From NCBI GenBank assembly GCA_029339195.1, contig JAPTJF010000034.1:62001-126000 (forward strand): 64,000 nt of DNA, written 5' to 3'. Made by a program: the position numbers and the translations under genes. Position 1 is the first letter of the stretch; each line of letters begins with the position of its first letter. Below are positions 5,036 to 41,589 of this stretch, one piece after another. A model generated the notes under the pieces. It worked only from the letters and a program-made list of their open reading frames with translations, was not told the DNA's origin and did no database searches. The DNA is from Micractinium sp. NFX-FRZ (Eukaryota; Chlorophyta; Trebouxiophyceae; Chlorellales; Chlorellaceae).

Positions 5036-7507
5036 ATGCTCGCCACGCAGGCGTGTACCGTCCGTCCTGAGGGGCGGGCAGCACTGCCCACTGCCTGCCG
5101 CACTGTCGGCACCAACAGAGCTCACGGACGCCGCGCTTGCACAGTGTCTGTGCGCGCCAGCGCTGCTGGTAGGCCTCAGGATGATATAAGCGGCATTGTG
5201 GCGGGCCGCCGGAAGGCCCTGGCTGCCGGCGGAGCGCTGGCGGCGGGGCTGCTGCTGCCTGGCAGCGGCGTCTTGGGCGCGGGGGTGGCCGCGGCAGCTG
5301 AGCCGGAGTCCATCTATGACCTCTCTGCGCTCATGTTTGGAGAGGAGGTGCCGCTGAGCCGCTACAGGGACCAGGTGCGAGGCGGGCAGGTGTTGGCCGG
5401 GACGCAGTGGCTCTGCCTGGGCAGCGCCGCACGGCCCCATGCACCTCTGCTGCCCCGCCTCTGTCACCCCTCCCTGGAACTGCGTGCGACTGGTTCCTTG
5501 CCGTCCACGCTCATCCGGCTTGCTGCTGCAGGTTCTGCTGGTGCTGAATGTCGCATCCGAGTGACCTCTGCAGAACGTCAACTACCCTGGTGAGTGTTCC
5601 GCTCATGCATGCCATGCAGGAGGATGACACCAACTTTTGTGTGTGCCAGCGTGAGAAGCAGCCATCCTTGGGGGCCAGAGCTCCCCAGTGGCCCCAGCAA
5701 GCAGCCACTAACGTTCACTGCCTGCCCGCTGGCTGGTGGCCTGCAGGTGCCAGAGCGCTGTACGACAAGTACAGGTCAGACCCTGTACTGCCGCACCTGT
5801 GCCCCGCTCCTTGCATGCCCGCCGACGATGTCAGTGCGCCACACATGTGCCTGAGCACAGAGGCTGCACGCTGCTGTCGCTGAGACACTGCTCTGCCCTG
5901 GCGCTGCCGCCTGCTGTGGCACACTCGCACGAGCCTGCACTTCACCGTCGCGCGTACTGCCTAACCTTCCTTCCTGTCCTGCAGGGACCAGGGTTTCAAC
6001 ATTGTGGCCTTCCCATGCAACCAGGTGCGGCCCGGGGCATGAGCGCAGCTTGGGGAGAACGGCGAGGAATGTGGGGGTGCAAGGGAGGCAAAGTCCCTGC
6101 TGTGGGGAGGGAAGACGACAACAAGGCAGCCAGGCAACGTCCAAGGCACGCCACGACAACCAACCCTCCTCGCATCCCTGGTCATGGTATGCCAGCCTGC
6201 CTAGAAATGGGTTTCCAGTCTCACCCCACGCAACCCCCTTTAGTCAGACGACTTCCCCTGCAACCTGGCAATTCGGCGTCCCCCCCCCCTGCTGCTGCAG
6301 TTTGGCGGGCAGGCCCCGGGCACTTCCCAGGAGGAGCGGGAGTGGGCCTGGCGCAAGTTTGGATTTAATTTTGATGTGTTCGACAAGATTGAGGTGCGAG
6401 CTCTGCAGCCGGCAGAGCCCTTCTCGTCCCGCCCTGCCTCCCACACTCAAACCCCCTGCCAGACACACACAAACACACACTCTCTCTCTCTGAGGCTGCG
6501 GGTGCCCTGGGTTCTGAGTTTGGGTTGCCTTTCAGGCAGCCTGCTGGGATCTGGGCTCCAAGGCGGGCTTCCCCCAGGCAGCTAGCCCAGGATGGATGCC
6601 ATGCCAGCCACCTCACCCCCTGCCCTGCCACATGTGCGGCTCGCTTGCTCACACAGGAGCTTGTTGCTGCTGTGCCGGTGCACTTGAAATGTAATTGATT
6701 GATTGATTGTGCCGCCGCCCGCTGCAGGTCAACGGCGCCGGCACGCACCCCATCTACCGCGTGCTGAAGCAGCAGCAGCGCGTGAGCCTGCCCTCCTCCT
6801 CCCCGCCGCCGCCGGGCGAGGCGGGACGCATCGAGTGGAAGTGAGTGCTGCTGCCGGGGCGGGGGTAGCGCGTGAGCAGCGCGCCGGCCGGGCTGGGTGC
6901 ACGGCTGCCGCCATTGCTTGTCAACCGCGGCAACCCGCACTGCACCCGCCAGCCAAAGCACCCGCCACACCCAGTTTCTGGTGGGCGCTCACACACGGAA
7001 CCGCTGCCTTGTGCGAAACGCAACCCGCTTCGCTTGCATTATGTAGATTATGTAGAACTGTAACTTACGAATAAATCATCCGCCTCATTCATTTGTGTGC
7101 AGCTACACCAAATTCCTTGTGGACCGCTCCGGCGTGGCCCGCAAGCGGTACAAGTGAGGGGGAGGGAGCCTGCGGGAGACGGGTCGGGCCCCTGCACAGA
7201 GCAAGAGAAGCAGTGCGCGGCGCGAGGCAGCCGCAGCACAGCGGGGCGCATCAGGGCACAGCATGCGCAGCCCCTCCTCCTGCCTGCGCAGAGCGGAACC
7301 CTCCCGCCCCTCCCCGCCTGCCTGCCCTCCACCGCTCCCTCTCTCCACCCCCTGCCTGCCTGCAGGCCCGGCTTCGACCCTCTTGACTTTGAGGCCGACA
7401 TCCGCCTGCTGCTGGCGGGCAAGGAGCCGCTGCCGGCAGAGTGCATCATGCACCCCGGGCGCAAGGTCTGCAAGGTGGACCCGCGCCTGGCTGGGGAGGA
7501 GGCCTAG
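5036..7507 (+). CDS. Glutathione peroxidase, apparent selenoprotein, plastid/thylakoid-lumen targeted
   Basis: Peroxidase reducing hydrogen or lipid hydroperoxides. Exons: 5036-5374, 5532-5589, 5747-5774, 5985-6024, 6301-6393, 6728-6840, 7103-7153 and 7366-7507. All phases agree, giving 287 residues if the in-frame TGA at 5562-5564 is read as selenocysteine. The active-site block reads NVASE-U-PLQNVNY, which aligns without gaps to NVASQ-U-GKTEVNY of animal GPX4. The rest of the tetrad is present: FPCNQFGGQ (Gln), EWNYTKFLVD (Trp, Asn). The leader has a stromal-type stretch ending near VRASA, then GRRKALAAGGALAAGLLLPG and AVAAAAE-like residues, i.e. a twin-arginine lumen signal (inferred). The C-terminal extension is Cys-containing (AECIMHPGRKVCK). 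ATG 4967 in frame is an alternative start. Without readthrough the product would be a short fragment. Confidence 0.88.
5562..5564 (+). other. In-frame TGA at the catalytic position (predicted Sec codon)
   Basis: Within exon 2 (5532-5589) the frame runs GTC GCA TCC GAG TGA CCT CTG CAG. The flanking exons both require this frame. Removing TGA by splicing would need a GTGACC...CAG intron of about 12 bases, which is not credible. The position equals Cys/Sec of the glutathione peroxidase family. A sequencing error (TGC to TGA) is the main alternative. Confidence 0.82.
6461..6492 (+). repeat. CA/CT simple repeat in glutathione peroxidase intron 5
   Basis: A run of ACAC units followed by TCTCTCTC. 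It is a simple microsatellite with no evident role. Confidence 0.7.
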
Positions 7508-7590: not shown

Positions 7591-8553
7591 CCTGAAGGAG
7601 GAGTGGGCTCCTGAAGCAGAGGGCTCCAGCTTGATGCTGGCGGTGGCAGAGGCCTGCCCAGGCCAACCTTCCCACCCCACCCCCCCAATTCCCACCCCAA
7701 CTCCCCCTCAGTCTAAAGTGTGCGGCTGCCTGCCGCAGCGCACGGCTGCAGGGGCCGGCGCAGCAGCGCTGCCTTGCATTATGACGGCACCAGGCTAAAC
7801 TGCGTACGCAGACGCCTGCTGCCCGACACACCCGGCCGCCCAGTGCCTGCCGCCTGCGCTCTGGCGGCGGCACTGGCGACCTGCAGGCGCGCTGCTGCCC
7901 GGCCCCCTGCAAGCCTGCGCATGCAACTGGCCCCTCGCACTGTCTGCCCACCCGAGAGAGAGAGGTCGGTTTTCCCTCAGTGCCTATTGAAAACTGTGTT
8001 CCCAGCATCTTTTTTGAACAATTTCGCAACACAACACACACCATCCGAAGTAAGCAAACCCGCGGAACTTGTGTTGGCATGAAATGAGGACAAGCACTCG
8101 TTTGAACGACACAAGGCTACGCTTCGTGCATGCATCAGTGGGGTAGGAAAACAACCGAGCGGCGCCACCAAGGCGCTCGTACCCACCGCAGATTGAGACA
8201 GGGGAGGGACCCAACAAAAGAAATACCGAGATGGGGGGCAGGGACGCAATCAAGGGGTGTGAAGTCATGGGGGCTGAGGAGAGCGCTTGAGAGGAGGGAT
8301 GTGCTGCGCTTTTGGGGAGCAATCAGGCAGGAGGGCAGCTGAACAAATCCGGGCGCAGCAGGGCACGCTCCCGGGTGTTCAGGAGGCGGGCGCTGCGCCT
8401 GTCGAGGAACAATCAAACCAGGGGGGTGCAAGTGAAACAATCCAGGGGCAGCATAGCCGTGCCACCGTGGGTGGGGTGGGGTGGGGTGGGGCGGGGTGGG
8501 CTCAAGGAGGCTTGCAAAGGGGGGCTTGGGGCACTGTTGGGCGGCCTGCTGAT
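7591..8553. other. Glutathione peroxidase 3' UTR and convergent spacer
   Basis: Apart from the SECIS candidate, this stretch holds the end of the glutathione peroxidase transcript and the 3' UTR of the convergent minus-strand gene. A GGGGT-rich minisatellite lies at about 8467-8500. No further gene was seen. Confidence 0.5.
7781..7827 (+). promoter_or_regulatory. Candidate SECIS element (core and apical part)
   Basis: ATGA at 7781-7784 faces GA at 7825-7826, able to form the tandem G.A pairs of a SECIS core. GGCACCAGGC (7786-7795) pairs with GCCTGCTGCC (7814-7823) with one C-C mismatch. The apical part starts TAAAC, so the conserved A run begins 12 bases after ATGA, the usual spacing. CTGC-GTAC-GCAG then forms the extra ministem of a form-2 SECIS. 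There is one C-C mismatch beside the core, and helix I below the core is not clear. It lies about 275 bases after the stop, a normal place for eukaryotic SECIS. Confidence 0.6.
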
Positions 8554-28691: not shown

Positions 28692-30279
28692 CTACTCGCC
28701 CAACATGCTGTCATCTGGCCGCTGCAGATAGCGGACAGCACAAGGGACATGCACAGCGATGGCCAGGCACTCTAGAAAGCGGATCTGCTCCCGGTTCATG
28801 GGCCCCTCCACCAGCATGACCTCGGTGCCACTTGTCGGCATGTTGCCCTCATGCAGCAGTGCCGACAGGTGGTTGTACACCTGGTCCGCCCTGCAACCAA
28901 ACAGTGGGGCGCGCGTCCAGCAGCAATGCATTGTGAGACCACGCAGCGCATGGGCCTGGGGCGTGGCAGGAAGAGGGGCGCTAGCTCAAGCAGCTGACCC
29001 ACCGGCGCTCCACTGCTGTGTCAACCCGGCGCAACCAGAGGGCGGCGTGTGCCGCAGCTTTCTGTGTGGCCCCCGGCTGCCCTTCTGTCGCACACGAGGC
29101 GGGGACAGCAGGCGAGGCAGCAGCAGGCAGCAGCAGCAGGCAGCAGCAGGCAGCCGCAGCACAGCACCGTGACAGCTTAGTGCACATGCACACTGCACAG
29201 CATGCTTACTTCTCTGGGATGTGTTCTTCTCTCCAGGAAGGGTTGGCCTCCAGGATGCGAGCCAGCAGGTCGGGGCGCCGTCTGCCCAGCCTGCCCCACA
29301 TGCTCTTGCGGTCCTCTAAGCTGGTGGGGTCCGGTGGTGGGAACAGCCGATCTTCTGCAAACTCTGCAACAGACGCAGCCAGAACAGCGGGATCAGTGCC
29401 GACGCCGGCATGCTCCGCCGACGCCAGCCTCGTGCAGCGCACGTCAACTGGCATGCCCAACACGGCTGGCAGTGAGCTGGCAACTTGAGCGCATGCACAG
29501 GCACTGCCCACCCTGCCAGCAGCCTGCACGTCAGCCGTTGCACTGTGATGGGAACTGCTGCTGGCTGCAGGCTTACCCACGAGCCCGCGTGCGTTCAGCG
29601 CGTCCAGAACGTGCAGGTACCGGGCCCCCAGAGTCTGCAGGGGAGCGGTGGTTTGATGGGCAGATGCATGAGATTGGCAGGGCAGCTCACAGCCCTGGCC
29701 ACTGTTGCTCCTGTGATAGCCAGCCAGCGCTAACAATAGGTACCCTTTGCTTACCTCCAGCTGCGAGCTGAGGACCACCACCTCGGAGCGCCACTGTGCC
29801 ACGGTGGCCTCCTTCTGAGCAGCCGCGGCCTCCTTCAGCGCAGCCGCCAAGGCGGCCGCGCTCTCGGCAGCCACCACCGCCTCCTCTGCAGCGGCAGCCG
29901 CCAAGGCGGCCTCCTTCTCCGCAGCGGCAAGCGCCAAGGCGGCCTCCTTCTCCGCAGCGGCAAGCGCCAAGGCGGCCTCCTTCTCCGCAGCGGCAGCCGC
30001 CAAGGCGGCCTCCTTCTCCGCAGCGGCAAGCGCCAAGGCGGCCTCCTTCTCCGCAGCGGCAGCCGCCTCCCTCACCAGCTGGGCCTGCTTCTGAAGCAGG
30101 GCTTTACTCACGCGCGGCTTGGCCACCAACTCGCTCAGCCCCTGGATAGCGTCATCCAACCCGGCGTAATTGACGATTCTGACCGCTGACGTACGTAGGA
30201 CTGGCTGCACGCGGCCAGCGAAGCGGCCAGGCCGCGGCAGTGGCCTGCCGACACACGACGCGCTCTGCACCAGGTGCAT
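28692..30279 (-). CDS. Ala/Glu/Lys 11-residue-repeat protein, function unknown
   Basis: Exons on the minus strand: 30279-29755, 29634-29577, 29363-29210 and 28890-28692 (311 residues). The N-terminus (MHLVQSASCVGRPLPRPGRF, then basic and Ser residues) looks like an organelle transit peptide. Residues about 75-140 consist of roughly five copies of AAEKEAALALA, an 11-residue repeat coded by a 33-base tandem repeat. Such hendecads form long helices, as in coiled coils or group 3 LEA proteins. After it come TLGARYLHVLDALNARGL, FPPPDPTSLEDRKSMWGRLG, LARILEANPSWREEHIPEK and VMLVEGPMNREQIRFLECLA. The last part appears globular, but I know no family for it. The start at 30279 was chosen because upstream sequence in frame has no further ATG close by and is pyrimidine-rich like a leader. 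Confidence 0.75.
29880..30070 (-). repeat. 33-base coding tandem repeat (11-residue units)
   Basis: Units GGCGGCCTCCTTCTCCGCAG followed by CGGCAAGCGCCAA repeat about five times with few changes, encoding AAEKEAALALA. High identity between units suggests recent expansion or homogenisation. Confidence 0.85.
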
Positions 30280-30889
30280 TGCGGACAGCCAGGCACAGAA
30301 GGACAGGCGGACCGCGAGAATAGGGTAGGGTGAAGAAAGAAGAAGCTGACACGCGTGGGTGACTGGGGGGTGATAGCGACAGCCTGGCTGGCGGCGGCTA
30401 ATGCCGCCGCTGCCAGACTGCCGACCCACTCCCTTGTAGGGGCCTGTCAGCCGGGCCCGCCCTGTCCAACTCTTTCAGGAGCTTGCCTTCCGTTGTCCAG
30501 ATATTCTCAGTGCACAAAACCGCAGCATTCTGCACCCGCCCAACCGCTTGTGCTGCCCGCTGTGCACTCACCCCACATCCCAGCAGCCCCTCCGCTAGCG
30601 TAGCTGCGACCAGGCCCGAATGCGAAACCACCACTGGGTACACAGTCACCTCCCAGTCAGGAAGGCTGATTAGGCTGATGAGGCGGCCCTCCCAGCGGAG
30701 GCAAGGGCCCTGCCTACATGTGCAGTGCTCACTGAGGCATTCAGCTCATTTGACGCCCGTGCATGTGCTTTGGCTGTGTTTGGTGGTTTCCCCGTTGTTG
30801 ACAAAAAAAACAAAAGATTTTGTGCGTGCTGTGTACAGCACGCAGGCACGTTCACGCGTTTGCAGTACGAGCAGGGCAGCACCTCGCTT
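30280..30889. other. Spacer with one unexplained minus-strand open frame
   Basis: Between OBAP stop and the repeat-protein start. On the minus strand a frame from about 30712 to a stop at 30398 reads like protein (RWEGRLISLISLPDWEVTVY, AAVLCTENIWTTEGKLL) but has no ATG and no proven splice partner. It could be an exon of an unplaced small gene, an alternative 3' exon of OBAP, or chance. Confidence 0.3.
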
Positions 30890-33800
30890 CTAGCTGCTTC
30901 CCTCCACCCGCTCTCCCCCCTCTGCCGTGCGACCGCTGCCAGCAGCGGGCTTGAAGGGGACCTTCTCCACGTTTGTTTGCCAGGAGGTGCCGCTCTGCCA
31001 GTGGTCTGCGGCAGGGTCGATGCTGGGCGGCCAGTCCAGCTGCTCCCTCCTCTCCCTCCCCTTGTCTGCAGTTGAGTGGGGATGTGAAGGGTGGGTGTGA
31101 CAACGGGGAAGAAACTGCCACAGCAGCGTGGTGTCCTCTGCGTCACTGGCTGCCAAGCCGAGTGCGACGCCCGCTGCTCCTGGCACCTGTGTACTGAGAC
31201 AGCGGGGCGGGGCGCACGACAGTGCCTCTCTTGAGCCCTCTCAGAGTAACTGTCGACCAGACTCTGCTCAGCTGTCTGCTGCCAGCATATAGGTGATTGA
31301 GGGGCACAGCAGTGCACGGGTCCACACACCTGCTGTGCTCACTCCAAAGCGTGCATCCCGCTCTGCCACCAGCTCTGGCCGCACCTGCTACCAAGGCATT
31401 GGAGTAGCAACAGTTGTCTCTAAATAAGAACCTGGGCAGAGTGGCTGCCAGCAAGGCGGTGTGCGCCATCACGGGCAGAGGTCAACAATCGCACCGACAT
31501 ACATTGTTGGGCAAGGCTGCGCTGCGCTGCAGGCCCCGCAGGCACCACGGGCCTAGCCATGCAGCATCGCATTGTGACTCTAAAACAGGCTCCAAAGGAC
31601 CCCGAAGCACCGCTGTGTGGCCACTGGTGCATCAAGCCAAGTCAGCTGTCGCCTCACCTGGCCATCTGCCGTGAAGGCCATCATGAGCTGGGGCGGCCCT
31701 GTGGACAGGGGCCAGGCAGGGGGGGAGGTTATTGATGCCATGGGGAGGTAGGGGTTGTAGAAAGGGGTGCGTCCTGCGTTTGAATAAAGACAGCTTGCGT
31801 TCCTGGGCCGGGCAAGAGGAAGGCAGTTGACAGCAGCCGAAGCGCCACGGGCTTGGCAGACATCCAGTCTGCTGGAATAAAGGCAAGCACATCGTCGGAT
31901 ATAGAAACACATTGAACGACACACTGCTCGCTGGCACCCACCGTAGGGCAGCGGGTCCCCTCGGTCCACCTGCCATGTGTGCCACGTCTTGCCGTAGGTG
32001 CCAATGAGCTGCAGCTAGGAGACGGAGCGGGAAAGAAAATTGGCAAGAAGATGAAGAAGACAAGTGCATTTACATCGACAGCAGCCTGCACCCTTCTCAT
32101 GTGTGGCATGAACAATCAATGATGCCAGCTGCAAGGGGGACCACAGAGGCAGAGACAGGAAACAATCGGGCCCGCCACCTGTGCCTCGGCGGCCCTACAA
32201 ACCCAGGCGGGGCTCACTGCGAGTGTTTTTGTTGCGGCTGCAGCACGTAGTCTCAAGCTTAGGCACGTGCCCGCTCACCTTCTGTGTGCCTTTCGGTCTC
32301 CCCCAAGCAAGCAAGCAAGCGGTGCAGAGCGCAAGTGCAGTCGATCATACTGCAGGTCATGCCCACACGTGCACGCGTGTTGCAAATGACAGAACAGTGC
32401 CCGCTCACCTTCTGCATGTCCTGCCGCTCCGCCAGCCCCGGCACGCGTGGCGCCACCAGCAGCCCGCTGCCTACCTCATACCTGCTCGGCAGCACGGAGG
32501 GCGGCAACATGTCATGCTGGGCGATACATCCGCATGTGCTGCAGCCCTGCCAGCACTGAGACTGCTGCGGGAAGGCAGGGGCAGGGCAGGGCAGGGCACG
32601 AGGGCGGCCTGGCCGGCTCGACGCCATGCCCGCTGCATATGCAGCCTGCCCCTGCTTGATTCCCTCCCTGCTGGCCATATGTGCATGCAACCGCGGTAAG
32701 TGCAGCCCCGCTCCCCTCTGCCACCCACCGACCTGTGGCTGTGCCAGTACTTCTTTTCCTCCTCGGGGAGCTCCTTGAACAGCCGTTCGCTGATGATGTA
32801 CTGCTTGGTGGGTTGGGGATGTGGCATGTGAGGGGGTAGAAAGATTGGTTGGGGTGAGCAGCCGCACCGAGTGTTGAAGGATGCGGGAGCGGTGGGGAGG
32901 CTGGGCAGCTGAACACCCGAGAGCACAGGCACACAAAGCGGTCCGCAGCCCTCGTCCCTGCGTATAAGCCAGGCTGGCGGCAGCACCCCAGCAGGTCTCA
33001 CCTCCACGCCAATGAGCCGTGCGCCAGCTGGGGTGCCACACGGAGGCAGGTTGGAAGTAAGCGAGGCACAGAAAACGGAGCCTGGTAAGGGCAGTTGCAG
33101 AGGCACAAGCGCCAGGGCAGTGCCGGTCCCACCGCCAACCACACACTTTGCACACAGTAGATGTGCAGCAGCACAACACGTGTGCTGAACAAGGCGCTAA
33201 GCCTCCCTCCCCTGCACCTGCGTCCGAGTCGAACAGGCAGCACTGCCTGAACTCCTCGCTGGGGTGGCTGCAGTAATGATGCACCTCCACCTGGCGTGAC
33301 ATGTCATCTACGTTTGTCGCAAGTGGGGGGAAGCAGGTGGCGGGCCGAGGTTGGGGGTGCACAGCTATTTGTTGTAATGGTGCAGGCAGGGGGCTGGTGC
33401 GCAGCTGCTAAGTGCACATGGCGGAGGACAGGCAGAGGTGGTGTGGCTGCAGCTGAAGCGACCCCCCTCACCCGGTGTTTCGGCCAGCTGGGCTGAGGCA
33501 TGCGTGCGCATAGGAATGGTAGTGCCTGGCATCATGTGACTACAGCAGCCCCCGGGGTTCAGCTCACACAACCCCCGCCCCGTCCTGCTCCCAAAACCGC
33601 CTAGCATCTCCCTGAGCTCACGTGCGTAGAAGTGCCAGGCGCAGACGTGTTCGTGAATGGCCTTCACAGGTGTGAAGCTCTGCATCACATCCCGCCCCAC
33701 GTCCAGCACCTGTGGGATGGAGGGAGTGGCAAGGCGGAGGGCTGGCACAGCTGCGGCAGGTGGAGTGGGCAGCTCTGCTGAACATTCCCGGCCCATGTCC

Positions 33801-39500: not shown

Positions 39501-41589
39501 AGGTGGTGGGTGCCTGCGACGCCAGGTGGCGCCCAGAGTGATGCCAGCAGGGCGCCACGAGGGCACGCACGCAGCTGCTGCTACTTTTGCTGCCACGCAA
39601 GTGTACACCCCCGTTCAAACCATGCATCCGGCTTGCCTCGCCTCTCCTCACCCCTGCCACCGCTGCACCCTGCATGCACCCGTCTCCTCCCTCCCGCAAT
39701 CACCCCTTGCTACCCCCCACTCTTTCTCCTGCAGACGTGCACGCCGGAAACCTGTTGGTGCTGCCTGATGGGCGGGTGGGCTTCATCGATTTTGGCATTG
39801 TGGGGCGCATCAGGTGCGTGTGCATGTGTGTGTGCAACTGCGTGTGGGGACCAAGGCTGGCTCGTGGGCATGTGTATGTGAGAGGGTGGGTGGGGTGCAT
39901 TGGCTCTGGCATTGTGGGGCGCTCGGGTGAGGGTGATTGTGTACAGGGCGCAAACATAACCCGTCTCTTGAGATGTCCTCCGCCCCACGGCTCCCCCGCA
40001 CAGCCCTCCACGCCATCCTCGCTCGCCCACTCACCTACCTGCCTCTCTGCAGCCCAATGGCTCGCCGCTAGACGATGCGCTGCTGCTGGCCGCTGCTGCA
40101 CACAACGTGTACCTCTTCCCCCGCCCCCCTGCAGCCCGGTGACGTGGCGTGCCGTCGAGGCCCTGCTGCTGGCCACCGGCAGCAGCGACTACGAGACAAT
40201 GGCCAAGGCGCTTGTGACCATTGGAGCCACGAGCGGGGAGGTGGACATCAAGGTGGGTGGGCGGGGGTGACGTGGTGGTGGGCGGGAGGCGATGGCGAAG
40301 AGGGGCAGGGAGGCGACGGCGGTAGCAGACAGTCGACGGGGGGAGGGGCGGGGAGGCTTGAGGACAATAGGCGCTCCAAAACGATGGCTACGAGCCCCTG
40401 AACCCCACCCACCCCTTCCCCCCGCCCCCTCGCTGCAGGCCTTTGCCGCCGATCTGGAGCACCTCTTCTCCTCCCTGCAGTCGGTGGATGCGGAGCCGGT
40501 CATTTTTCACCGCTCATTGCCAACAAACGTTCGGCCACCCCGTTCCCAACAGTGTTGCCTTCCCCCCGCCCCCTCTCCGCAGGCCTGTGCTGCCGACCTA
40601 GAGCACCTCTTTGCTTCAGTCGGTTGATGCGGAGGCGATCATTTTTCACCGTTCATTGCCAACAAACGTTCAGCCACCCCCGTTTCCAACAGGATTGCCT
40701 TACCTCGCCCCCCTCCCTGCAGGCCTTTGCCGCCGACCTGGAGCACCTCTTCTCCTCCCTGCAGTCGGTGGATGCGGAGCTGATTGTGCAGGCGGGCGCG
40801 GGGGGCGCCGTGTCCGCCTCGGTGGCGGCGGACGATGCCGCAGTCAACCGCGTGCTGCTGGACCTGGTCAGGTCAGGAAGCTTTACTGCTCCTGCCTCGT
40901 GTTTCCGGATAGTTTGGGGTCGCCGGTGTGTGCTGCTGCTGCTGGGCTTGGTCAGGTGGGTGGGGGCAAGGCGCCGGTGGCAGCGATTGGAGGGTGAACG
41001 CATTGTTGCCTTCCCACCACTGGTGTGCGGCGTTCGGTGTTCGCAGATGTTGATTGGCTCTCTGCCCGCCCTGGCTGCAGGGTTGGCAAGAACAATGGCA
41101 TCTGCTTCCCCTTGCTGATCAGTCTCTGTTATGAGCGTAACGTTCAATTGTGCCTACTTTTCTTCCTTCTCCCACTTGCAGGGTGGGCGAGAACAACGGC
41201 ATCCGCTTCCCCCGCGAGTTCGCGCTGCTCATCAAGCAGCTGCTCTACTTTGACAGGTCAGCAACGCAACACAACTTCGTGTTCTTTGCATGAGCTGTCA
41301 GCGCAGTGCTGTGCCTACGCATCAAGCCTATGGGCTCGGGCGCGCACGTTGACAAGCGTGATGGTGCTTGCGCGGCCGGCCTGCGCCCTCACGGCCCCCT
41401 GGCATCCTCACAACCCCACTCACCCCTCACCCCTACCCCTCTCATGCCACCCTTCCCGCCCCCACCCTGTGCACACACACACACACACATGCACGCAGGT
41501 ACAACCGCATCCTGGCTCCCCAACTGCGCGTGTTTGACGACCAGCGGATCAATTTGAGGCAGGTCGACCTGGACTTTGACCTAAATTGA
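36522..41589 (+). CDS. ABC1/UbiB-family atypical kinase (ABC1K), plastid
   Basis: Atypical kinase of the ABC1/ADCK/UbiB family; plant members act in plastoglobules or mitochondria on prenylquinone metabolism. Exons: 36522-37006, 37156-37239, 37448-37538, 37753-37837, 38086-38160, 38604-38757, 39040-39110, 39413-39490, 39735-39813, 40135-40252, 40723-40871, 41182-41256 and 41499-41589 (544 residues). The leader (MLAVAGTIAGRAVPRQAALA, then VSCRAVG) resembles a chloroplast transit peptide. Family hallmarks: KxGQ in YIKLGQFVAS (K154, Q157), Ala-rich loop TPLATASIAQVH (about 211-222), Lys in EVVIKVLKPG (K236), ExD in LEEVDF (E286, D288), DVHAGN (D375-N380) and DFG (D393-G395). All catalytic motifs are intact. 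At least six intron segments repeat exon edges. ATG 36360 in frame would add 54 residues. Confidence 0.93.
38215..38260 (+). repeat. Copy of ABC1K exon 5 donor edge
   Basis: CGCACCTCGCTGTCAGGTGG occurs at the true donor (about 38145-38164) and again 82 bases downstream, with flanks GACCTGGC upstream and GTGGCA downstream also shared. Both copies carry the GT donor. Confidence 0.85.
38462..38545 (+). pseudogene. Degenerate duplicate of ABC1K exon 6 start
   Basis: After an acceptor AG at 38470-38471, the sequence reads AIVGDATIHASMIEQVAYSK, then EAAHA, parallel to the true exon 6 (AIVGDIRASMLEEVDFRKEA) whose acceptor is 132 bases on. The copy has a two-residue insertion and has lost the ExD motif (EQVA instead of EEVD). 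It then runs into non-homologous sequence. It looks like a decayed duplicated exon. Confidence 0.8.
38835..38885 (+). repeat. Copy of ABC1K exon 6 donor edge
   Basis: GTGGCCACCT...GTGT.CAAGCAG...CAGCGGTGAG of the true exon end recurs about 127 bases downstream with a deletion, ending AAGCAGCGGTGAGAGGGG. Confidence 0.7.
39890..39935 (+). repeat. Copy of ABC1K exon 9 donor edge
   Basis: GGCATTGTGGGGCGC of the true exon end (39794-39808) recurs at about 39908-39922, preceded by a diverged GGGTGGGGTGCATTGGCTCT and followed by a donor-like GGTGAG. Confidence 0.7.
40051..40110 (+). repeat. Copy of ABC1K exon 10 acceptor edge
   Basis: CTCTGCAGCCCAATGGCTCG followed by GATGCGCTGCTGCTGGCC mirrors the true CCTGCAGCCCGGTGACGTGG with GGCCCTGCTGCTGGCC 82 bases later. 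The copy contains an in-frame stop and is not a usable exon. Confidence 0.7.
40437..40722 (+). repeat. Two tandem copies of ABC1K exon 11 start (triplicated unit)
   Basis: The block AGGCCTTTGCCGCCGACCTG, GAGCACCTCTTCTCCTCCCT, GCAGTCGGTGGATGCGGAG at the true exon (acceptor 40721-40722) is also present at 40437-40496 (nearly identical) and at 40581-40634 (shorter, frame broken). The repeat period is about 140-144 bases. The units share the tail CATTTTTCACCGCTCATTGC and a pyrimidine tract. The last unit is the functional exon. The first could still be spliced in some transcripts. Confidence 0.88.
41060..41120 (+). repeat. Copy of ABC1K exon 12 acceptor edge
   Basis: GCAGGGTTGGCAAGAACAAT then GGCATCTGCTTCCCC at 41077 parallels the true GCAGGGTGGGCGAGAACAAC and GGCATCCGCTTCCCC 101 bases on. 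The copy then diverges. Confidence 0.8.
41471..41490 (+). repeat. CA microsatellite in ABC1K last intron
   Basis: A run of ACAC units just before the last acceptor. It is a simple repeat. Confidence 0.65.

Follow-up and report, generated by a model that had tools for sequence, protein, structure and literature searches.

The window, a stretch of 64,000 nucleotides (C34:62001–126000) from a genome of 66 Mb in 838 contigs, holds a nuclear gene of a Chlorella-like green alga that appears to be intact and to encode a selenoprotein: a glutathione peroxidase (GPx) from the clade of Chlamydomonas GPX2/CrGPxB, with a TGA at the catalytic codon. Judged from sequence comparisons, it is very probable that selenocysteine (Sec) is inserted at this codon into an otherwise intact GPx.

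The gene lies on the plus strand, from the ATG at 5036 to the end of the TAG at 7507, and these bounds, already given in a preliminary description of this DNA, fit a model of eight exons that was placed by eye with homology as a guide and checked for splicing and frame. Exon 1 (5036–5374), supported by the exon and frame check and by relatives, encodes the N-terminal targeting part, which carries a lumen-type twin-arginine signal, and the start of the GPx domain. Exon 2 (5532–5589), the putative Sec exon, is 58 nt long and in its frame reads VLLVLNVASE-U-PLQNVNYP. The in-frame TGA at 5562–5564, the proposed Sec codon of residue 124, stands between NVASE and PLQNVNY, where the preliminary description had placed it, and aligns with the NVAS.C of homologues. 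Exon 3 (5747–5774) was set by its GT–AG borders, and the gene model supplies exon 4 (5985–6024), which terminates in FPCNQ, and exon 7 (7103–7153), which encodes (N)YTKFLVDRSG, the Asn codon straddling the exon 6–7 junction. Three exons were recovered by a protein-query search as well as by the gene model: exon 5 (6301–6393), with the catalytic Gln in FGGQ; exon 6 (6728–6840), reaching the catalytic Trp; and exon 8 (7366–7507), with the tail AECIMHPGRKVCKVD, its CX8C pair and the terminal TAG, the last being supported by the tails of relatives too. The joined exons measure 864 nt, 287 codons precede the TAG, and the frame contains two stop codons, the TGA at codon 124 and the final TAG. A gene is broken most simply by a stop within an exon, and a Cys or Sec codon could have decayed here into a true stop; against such a pseudogene, which we regard as very unlikely, all eight exons are otherwise open, all introns are GT...AG, and the stop falls on the one codon expected for Sec.

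In the GPx catalytic tetrad, Gln, Trp and Asn are the partners of Sec or Cys. The window protein has the Gln in FPCNQFGGQ and the Trp and Asn in EWNY, in line with the active site described earlier as intact, and Q159, W223 and N224 are invariant across a 22-sequence alignment. With Cys put at the TGA, the translation matches the Pfam family GSHPx (PF00255) at 100.9 bits (cut-off 27) and aligns to poplar GPX5 (2p5q) with an E-value of 2.8e-33. This alignment is free of gaps across the catalytic loop, as had been claimed from the sequence, and the TGA is aligned with the catalytic Cys of the solved GPx.

The layout of the SECIS core, in form II with the quartet, is AUGA, helix II, unpaired AA and GA. 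All of these core features are present 3′ of the gene at 7781–7826 (AUGA at 7781, GA at 7826), within a SECIS-like element of form II layout that occupies 7773–7839 on the plus strand. By eye and by folding, the order of its parts is AUGAC – GGCACCAGGC – UAAA – CUGCGUACGCAG mini-helix – AC – GCCUGCUGCC – CGAC. The Rfam model SECIS_1 covers 7773–7839 over its full length at 22.9 bits (E = 0.44 for the stretch), short of the gathering score of 35; this is the best of nine rows and the sole SECIS row in the 4.4 kb searched, and at the gathering threshold Rfam has no match anywhere in the window. The sub-gathering score makes the element less certain. We also scanned both strands of the window under a strict rule that required [AG]TGA, 9–13 bases, AA, GA and pairing in the helix, composed after the element had been seen. 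Among the 15 matches, the element at 7781 ranks first by energy (−19.9 kcal/mol) and third by pair number, and one match in 2.56 Mb of dinucleotide shuffles equals it in both pairs and energy. A looser scan that omits the AA rule returns three window matches (plus strand, 7781 and 9416; minus strand, 7449), two in 9 kb of contig C308 and six in 1.28 Mb of shuffles; the two extra window matches (−23.9 and −20.1) equal or exceed the 7781 element in stability, and the scan without the AA rule is too loose. A SECIS function of 7773–7839, together with Sec insertion, is strongly suggested. With a single assembly, it is conceivable that TGC or TGT became TGA through an error of sequencing or assembly, but such an error leaves the SECIS-like element unexplained, and we give it a slimmer chance still than a decayed gene.

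Absence of the whole Sec-insertion machinery from the genome, which according to the preliminary description would count against a selenoprotein, is not what we find: tRNA-Sec, SepSecS and eEFSec are clear, and PSTK and selenophosphate synthetase, which that description had also named, are found through weaker matches. The tRNA-Sec, with the anticodon TCA, lies on C20 and scores 67.9 bits (gathering score 47). A second tRNA-Sec match over the cut-off, on C5, is a tRNA-Leu according to ARAGORN, which detects no tRNA in the window. SepSecS is represented on C115 by eight exon pieces, with a best E of 1.0e-21, that lie between positions 1 and 443 of the 444 in the model; each of them is under the whole-protein cut-off because the search proceeds exon by exon. 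The TGA flagged in one piece is a splice donor read through and no Sec codon; we disregarded one further match, the ninth, which is weak and lies on C581. The two weaker matches fall short of their cut-offs: PSTK, one piece on C69 covering positions 2–195 of 340, scores 68.2 bits (E = 1.5e-17) against 382, and selenophosphate synthetase, four pieces on C13, reaches 52.3 bits at best against 125. The motif CGGCGSK occurs close to the beginning of the first synthetase piece, the matched pieces in C13:284193–285995 are stop-free, and the gene may encode a Cys-type form fused to another domain.

The eEFSec gene, on the minus strand of C93, gives the single genome match to a degenerate DNA pattern for GH[IV]DSGKT. 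Its joined exon pieces align to the solved eEFSec 5izk with an E-value of 2.8e-101, compared with 9.2e-25 for the best EF-Tu. Profile searches of the genome for eEFSec gave no match with PF21131, one short C93 piece with PF21208 (27.8 bits, marginally above the cut-off of 27) and six matches with TIGR00475. Three of the latter are probably not eEFSec: the match on C838, a tRNA-rich, organelle-like contig, is presumably chloroplast EF-Tu, judging from this context, and two on C61 resemble eIF2-gamma in sequence, which we take them to be. The SECIS-like element and the machinery argue against a pseudogene and lend support to the earlier reading of the gene as a true selenoprotein.

GPx genes in this genome apparently number at least two of the TGA type and at least three of the Cys type, counts that are lower bounds. 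Cys is found at the catalytic site in the genes on C5 (NVASQCGYTG), C229 (NVASACG) and C450 (NVASLCGYTG). A paralogue on C308 (within C308:13000–22000) has TGA at the same catalytic codon, about C308:14940, in the context NVASK-[TGA]-GLTATNYKG, and this second TGA at an identical codon is a further point against a sequencing error in the window gene. Some 120 nt past the probable stop of the C308 gene, assigned by reading, lies a hairpin with its AUGA at C308:16656. It has the AUGAC...CGAC core seen at 7781 and a ten-pair helix II, including one G-U, without an apical AA, and was recovered neither by the strict AA-rule scan nor by Rfam with E-values of up to 5 admitted. The C308 gene resembles the UG-type Sec-GPx, such as Chlamydomonas GPX1, in its TGA at the catalytic codon and its SECIS-like hairpin, and judging by the motif it probably corresponds to GPX1; it differs from the window gene in having Gly, not Pro, after Sec and in falling outside the clade of 34 sequences described below, grouping instead with the C229 gene and plant Cys-GPx (FastTree support 0.843). 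A genome search with Pfam GSHPx gave six matches, all on C5, C229 and C450, and so missed the two TGA-type genes; a protein-query search recovered all five genes (15 rows, E up to 1). Viral contigs contain 28 GPx loci, with identity of at most 41%, and a Sec-loop DNA pattern matched nowhere in them.

Relatives of the window protein were drawn from the best 120 of 944 protein matches, of which the first 33 were separated from the other 87; 13 of the 33 carry green-alga names. NVAS.C is present in none of the 33 and in 78 of the 87, a count that is partly circular because the dividing line was drawn after alignment of the first 36, where rows from P0034 onward carry NVAS.C. The tree is a check separate from this count: FastTree groups all 33 relatives with the window gene as a single clade (34 of 34, support 1.0), apart from 48 other sequences, made up of 44 of the others (every second of the 87) and four in-genome paralogues. 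The database models of 32 of the 33 relatives lack the Sec site, and either start downstream of it (MNYPG..., VNYP...) or are spliced around it. Such mis-annotation by automatic pipelines had been foreseen in the preliminary description, and surveys built on protein models would miss the residue as a consequence. The aligned codon in these 32 relatives is probably TGA. The NVAS loop is retained only in P0003, where the site is occupied by Trp; its codon may be a TGA read under another code or a true TGG. The top named relatives among the matches listed are Micractinium conductrix C2E20_8780 (84% identity over 64% of the query), from a species placed in Chlorellaceae, Trebouxiophyceae, and Chlorella ohadii COHA_009226 (77% identity over 66% of the query); their public models differ from ours in skipping or mis-splicing the Sec loop. 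Given these two relatives, the window very probably comes from a green alga of the Chlorella clade. That the NVAS loop is missing from the models of 32 relatives speaks against a pseudogene in the window, and an isolated base error leaves the loss of the same loop unexplained.

An AlphaFold2 model of P0003, built with 54 sequences (mean pLDDT 83.0), was compared with solved structures. Schistosoma GPx 2v1m came first, followed by poplar GPX5, and GPX4 was within the best ten. Animal GPX4, the phospholipid-hydroperoxide GPx, uses Sec chemistry, and its fold is close to that of the P0003 model (for example 6hkq, TM 0.90 by target length). Unlike animal GPX4, the window gene encodes an N-terminal targeting part, a C-terminal CX8C tail and a Pro after Sec.

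One member of the clade has already been described in the literature. Relative P0008 is CHLRE_08g358525, and the available text of PMC9404770 identifies Cre08.g358525 as the Sec-containing GPX2 of C. reinhardtii. In the accessible part of PMC3095285, the selenoprotein CrGPxB (GPx2) is described as 259 residues long, with a chloroplast prediction (0.65448/0.649) and with expression seen by RT-PCR. P0008 likewise has 259 residues, and by our own reading the primers given in that part of the paper translate as DSIYQF and, reversed, DIEWNY, both matching P0008. The two Sec-GPx are named GPX1 and GPX2 in the available portion of PMC7230881. Skipping or alternative splicing of the 58-nt exon would remove the TGA from the window gene and yield proteins like the public models, and those of P0001, P0002, P0004, P0005 and P0008 indeed have this form. 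However, these five models lose the catalytic residue and are mutually inconsistent, while the P0008 gene is a selenoprotein in print, as far as the available texts go; we consider such splicing the least probable reading, with hardly any weight.

The portion of PMC6627142 at hand reports the full Sec machinery in sequenced Trebouxiophyceae, Ulvophyceae and Chlorophyceae, with one exception, and GPx among the selenoproteins; Sec-GPX occurs in over half of 36 algal genomes according to the accessible text of PMC7539508, and the selenoprotein matches of the trebouxiophyte Picochlorum include two GPX in that of PMC11092101. The window gene and GPX2/CrGPxB belong to the same clade (the smallest clade shared by both has 18 members and support of 0.887) and share the RR signal and the HPGRKVC tail, GPX2/CrGPxB being Sec-type and chloroplast-predicted in the published text available. 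They differ in sequence, with 51% identity in the 22-sequence alignment, and in that the public model P0008 is devoid of the Sec loop. Since the Chlamydomonas member of the clade is already published as a Sec protein, the window gene extends a known type of Sec-GPx, and it adds a well-supported selenoprotein gene to a Chlorella-like genome.

Tat signals for the thylakoid lumen consist of RR, a hydrophobic stretch and AxA, and follow a transit peptide. Residues 57–88 of the window protein, GRRKALAAGGALAAGLLLPGSGVLGAGVAAAA, form a twin-arginine signal of this lumen type, with RRKAL, a mean hydropathy of 1.92 over 12 residues and AxA. The domain-start motif is retained in 12 of the 34 sequences and missing from 22; in nine of these 12 it is preceded by all three parts of the signal (RR, hydrophobic stretch, AxA), compared with 0.53 expected from residue shuffles, the criteria having been fixed after the alignment was seen and the nine not being independent events, as the sequences are related. 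The strict RR signal is absent from the other three: P0016 has KR, P0026 has DR and P0003 begins too late. A stricter regular expression had found the signal in three of five N-termini, a result superseded by the 12-sequence count. The opposite end of the protein is also distinctive: CX8C occurs within the last 45 residues in 30 of the 33 relatives (all except P0031, P0032 and P0033) and in none of the 87 others, and reads CIMHPGRKVC in the window protein.

The twin-arginine signal and the CX8C pair together suggest that the clade is a thylakoid-lumen selenoprotein, synthesized in the cytosol, imported into the plastid and passed on into the lumen through Tat, a proposal that we rate at about an even chance or slightly better. 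The competing possibility, that the Sec-GPx is retained in the stroma or lies in some other place, RR being a chance piece of a transit peptide, is a serious one, if somewhat short of an even chance. In its favour, the accessible text of PMC3095285 predicts CrGPxB for the chloroplast and calls plant GPx stromal, and the strict motif is missing from three of the 12 sequences; the recurrence of the full signal in the remaining nine counts against it, within the limits set by their relatedness. Among literature titles and abstract openings, a scope with most subscription journals outside it, no report of a selenoprotein or GPx located in the lumen was found, and the accessible text of PMC3095285 gives no lumen location for Chlamydomonas GPx. 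A lumen selenoprotein, if true, would have been overlooked because the public models lose the Sec site, and its range would extend from Chlorella relatives to Chlamydomonas or further. A working lumen signal would place selenium chemistry inside the thylakoid, near photosystem II.

The favoured course of events for the window gene, with Sec insertion at its centre, can be outlined as follows. The UGA of exon 2 would be decoded as Sec by tRNA-Sec(UCA) brought by eEFSec, and the SECIS-like stem-loop would direct this decoding from ~770 nt downstream in the transcript, presuming a 3′ UTR free of introns. Gln, Trp and Asn would hold the selenolate, which would then reduce hydroperoxides in the plastid, an enzyme activity deduced from the family. 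The N-terminal twin-arginine part would probably take the enzyme via Tat into the thylakoid lumen. The clade-typical cysteine pair at the C-terminus may aid re-reduction of the selenium; as a further guess, it may pass electrons to selenium in the lumen.

Elsewhere in the window, Pfam was run on ten chosen ORFs out of 23 of ≥260 aa and gave a single match, a piece of DUF1264 (42.4 bits, cut-off 25) in an ORF at 32259–33362 on the minus strand. Two tandem repeats are also apparent. One, at 40414–40784, has 140-base units in 2.6 copies with 83% matches; the other, at 29880–30067, has units of 33 bases (11 codons) in 5.7 copies with 93% matches and sits within a minus-strand ORF of 407 aa at 29206–30429.
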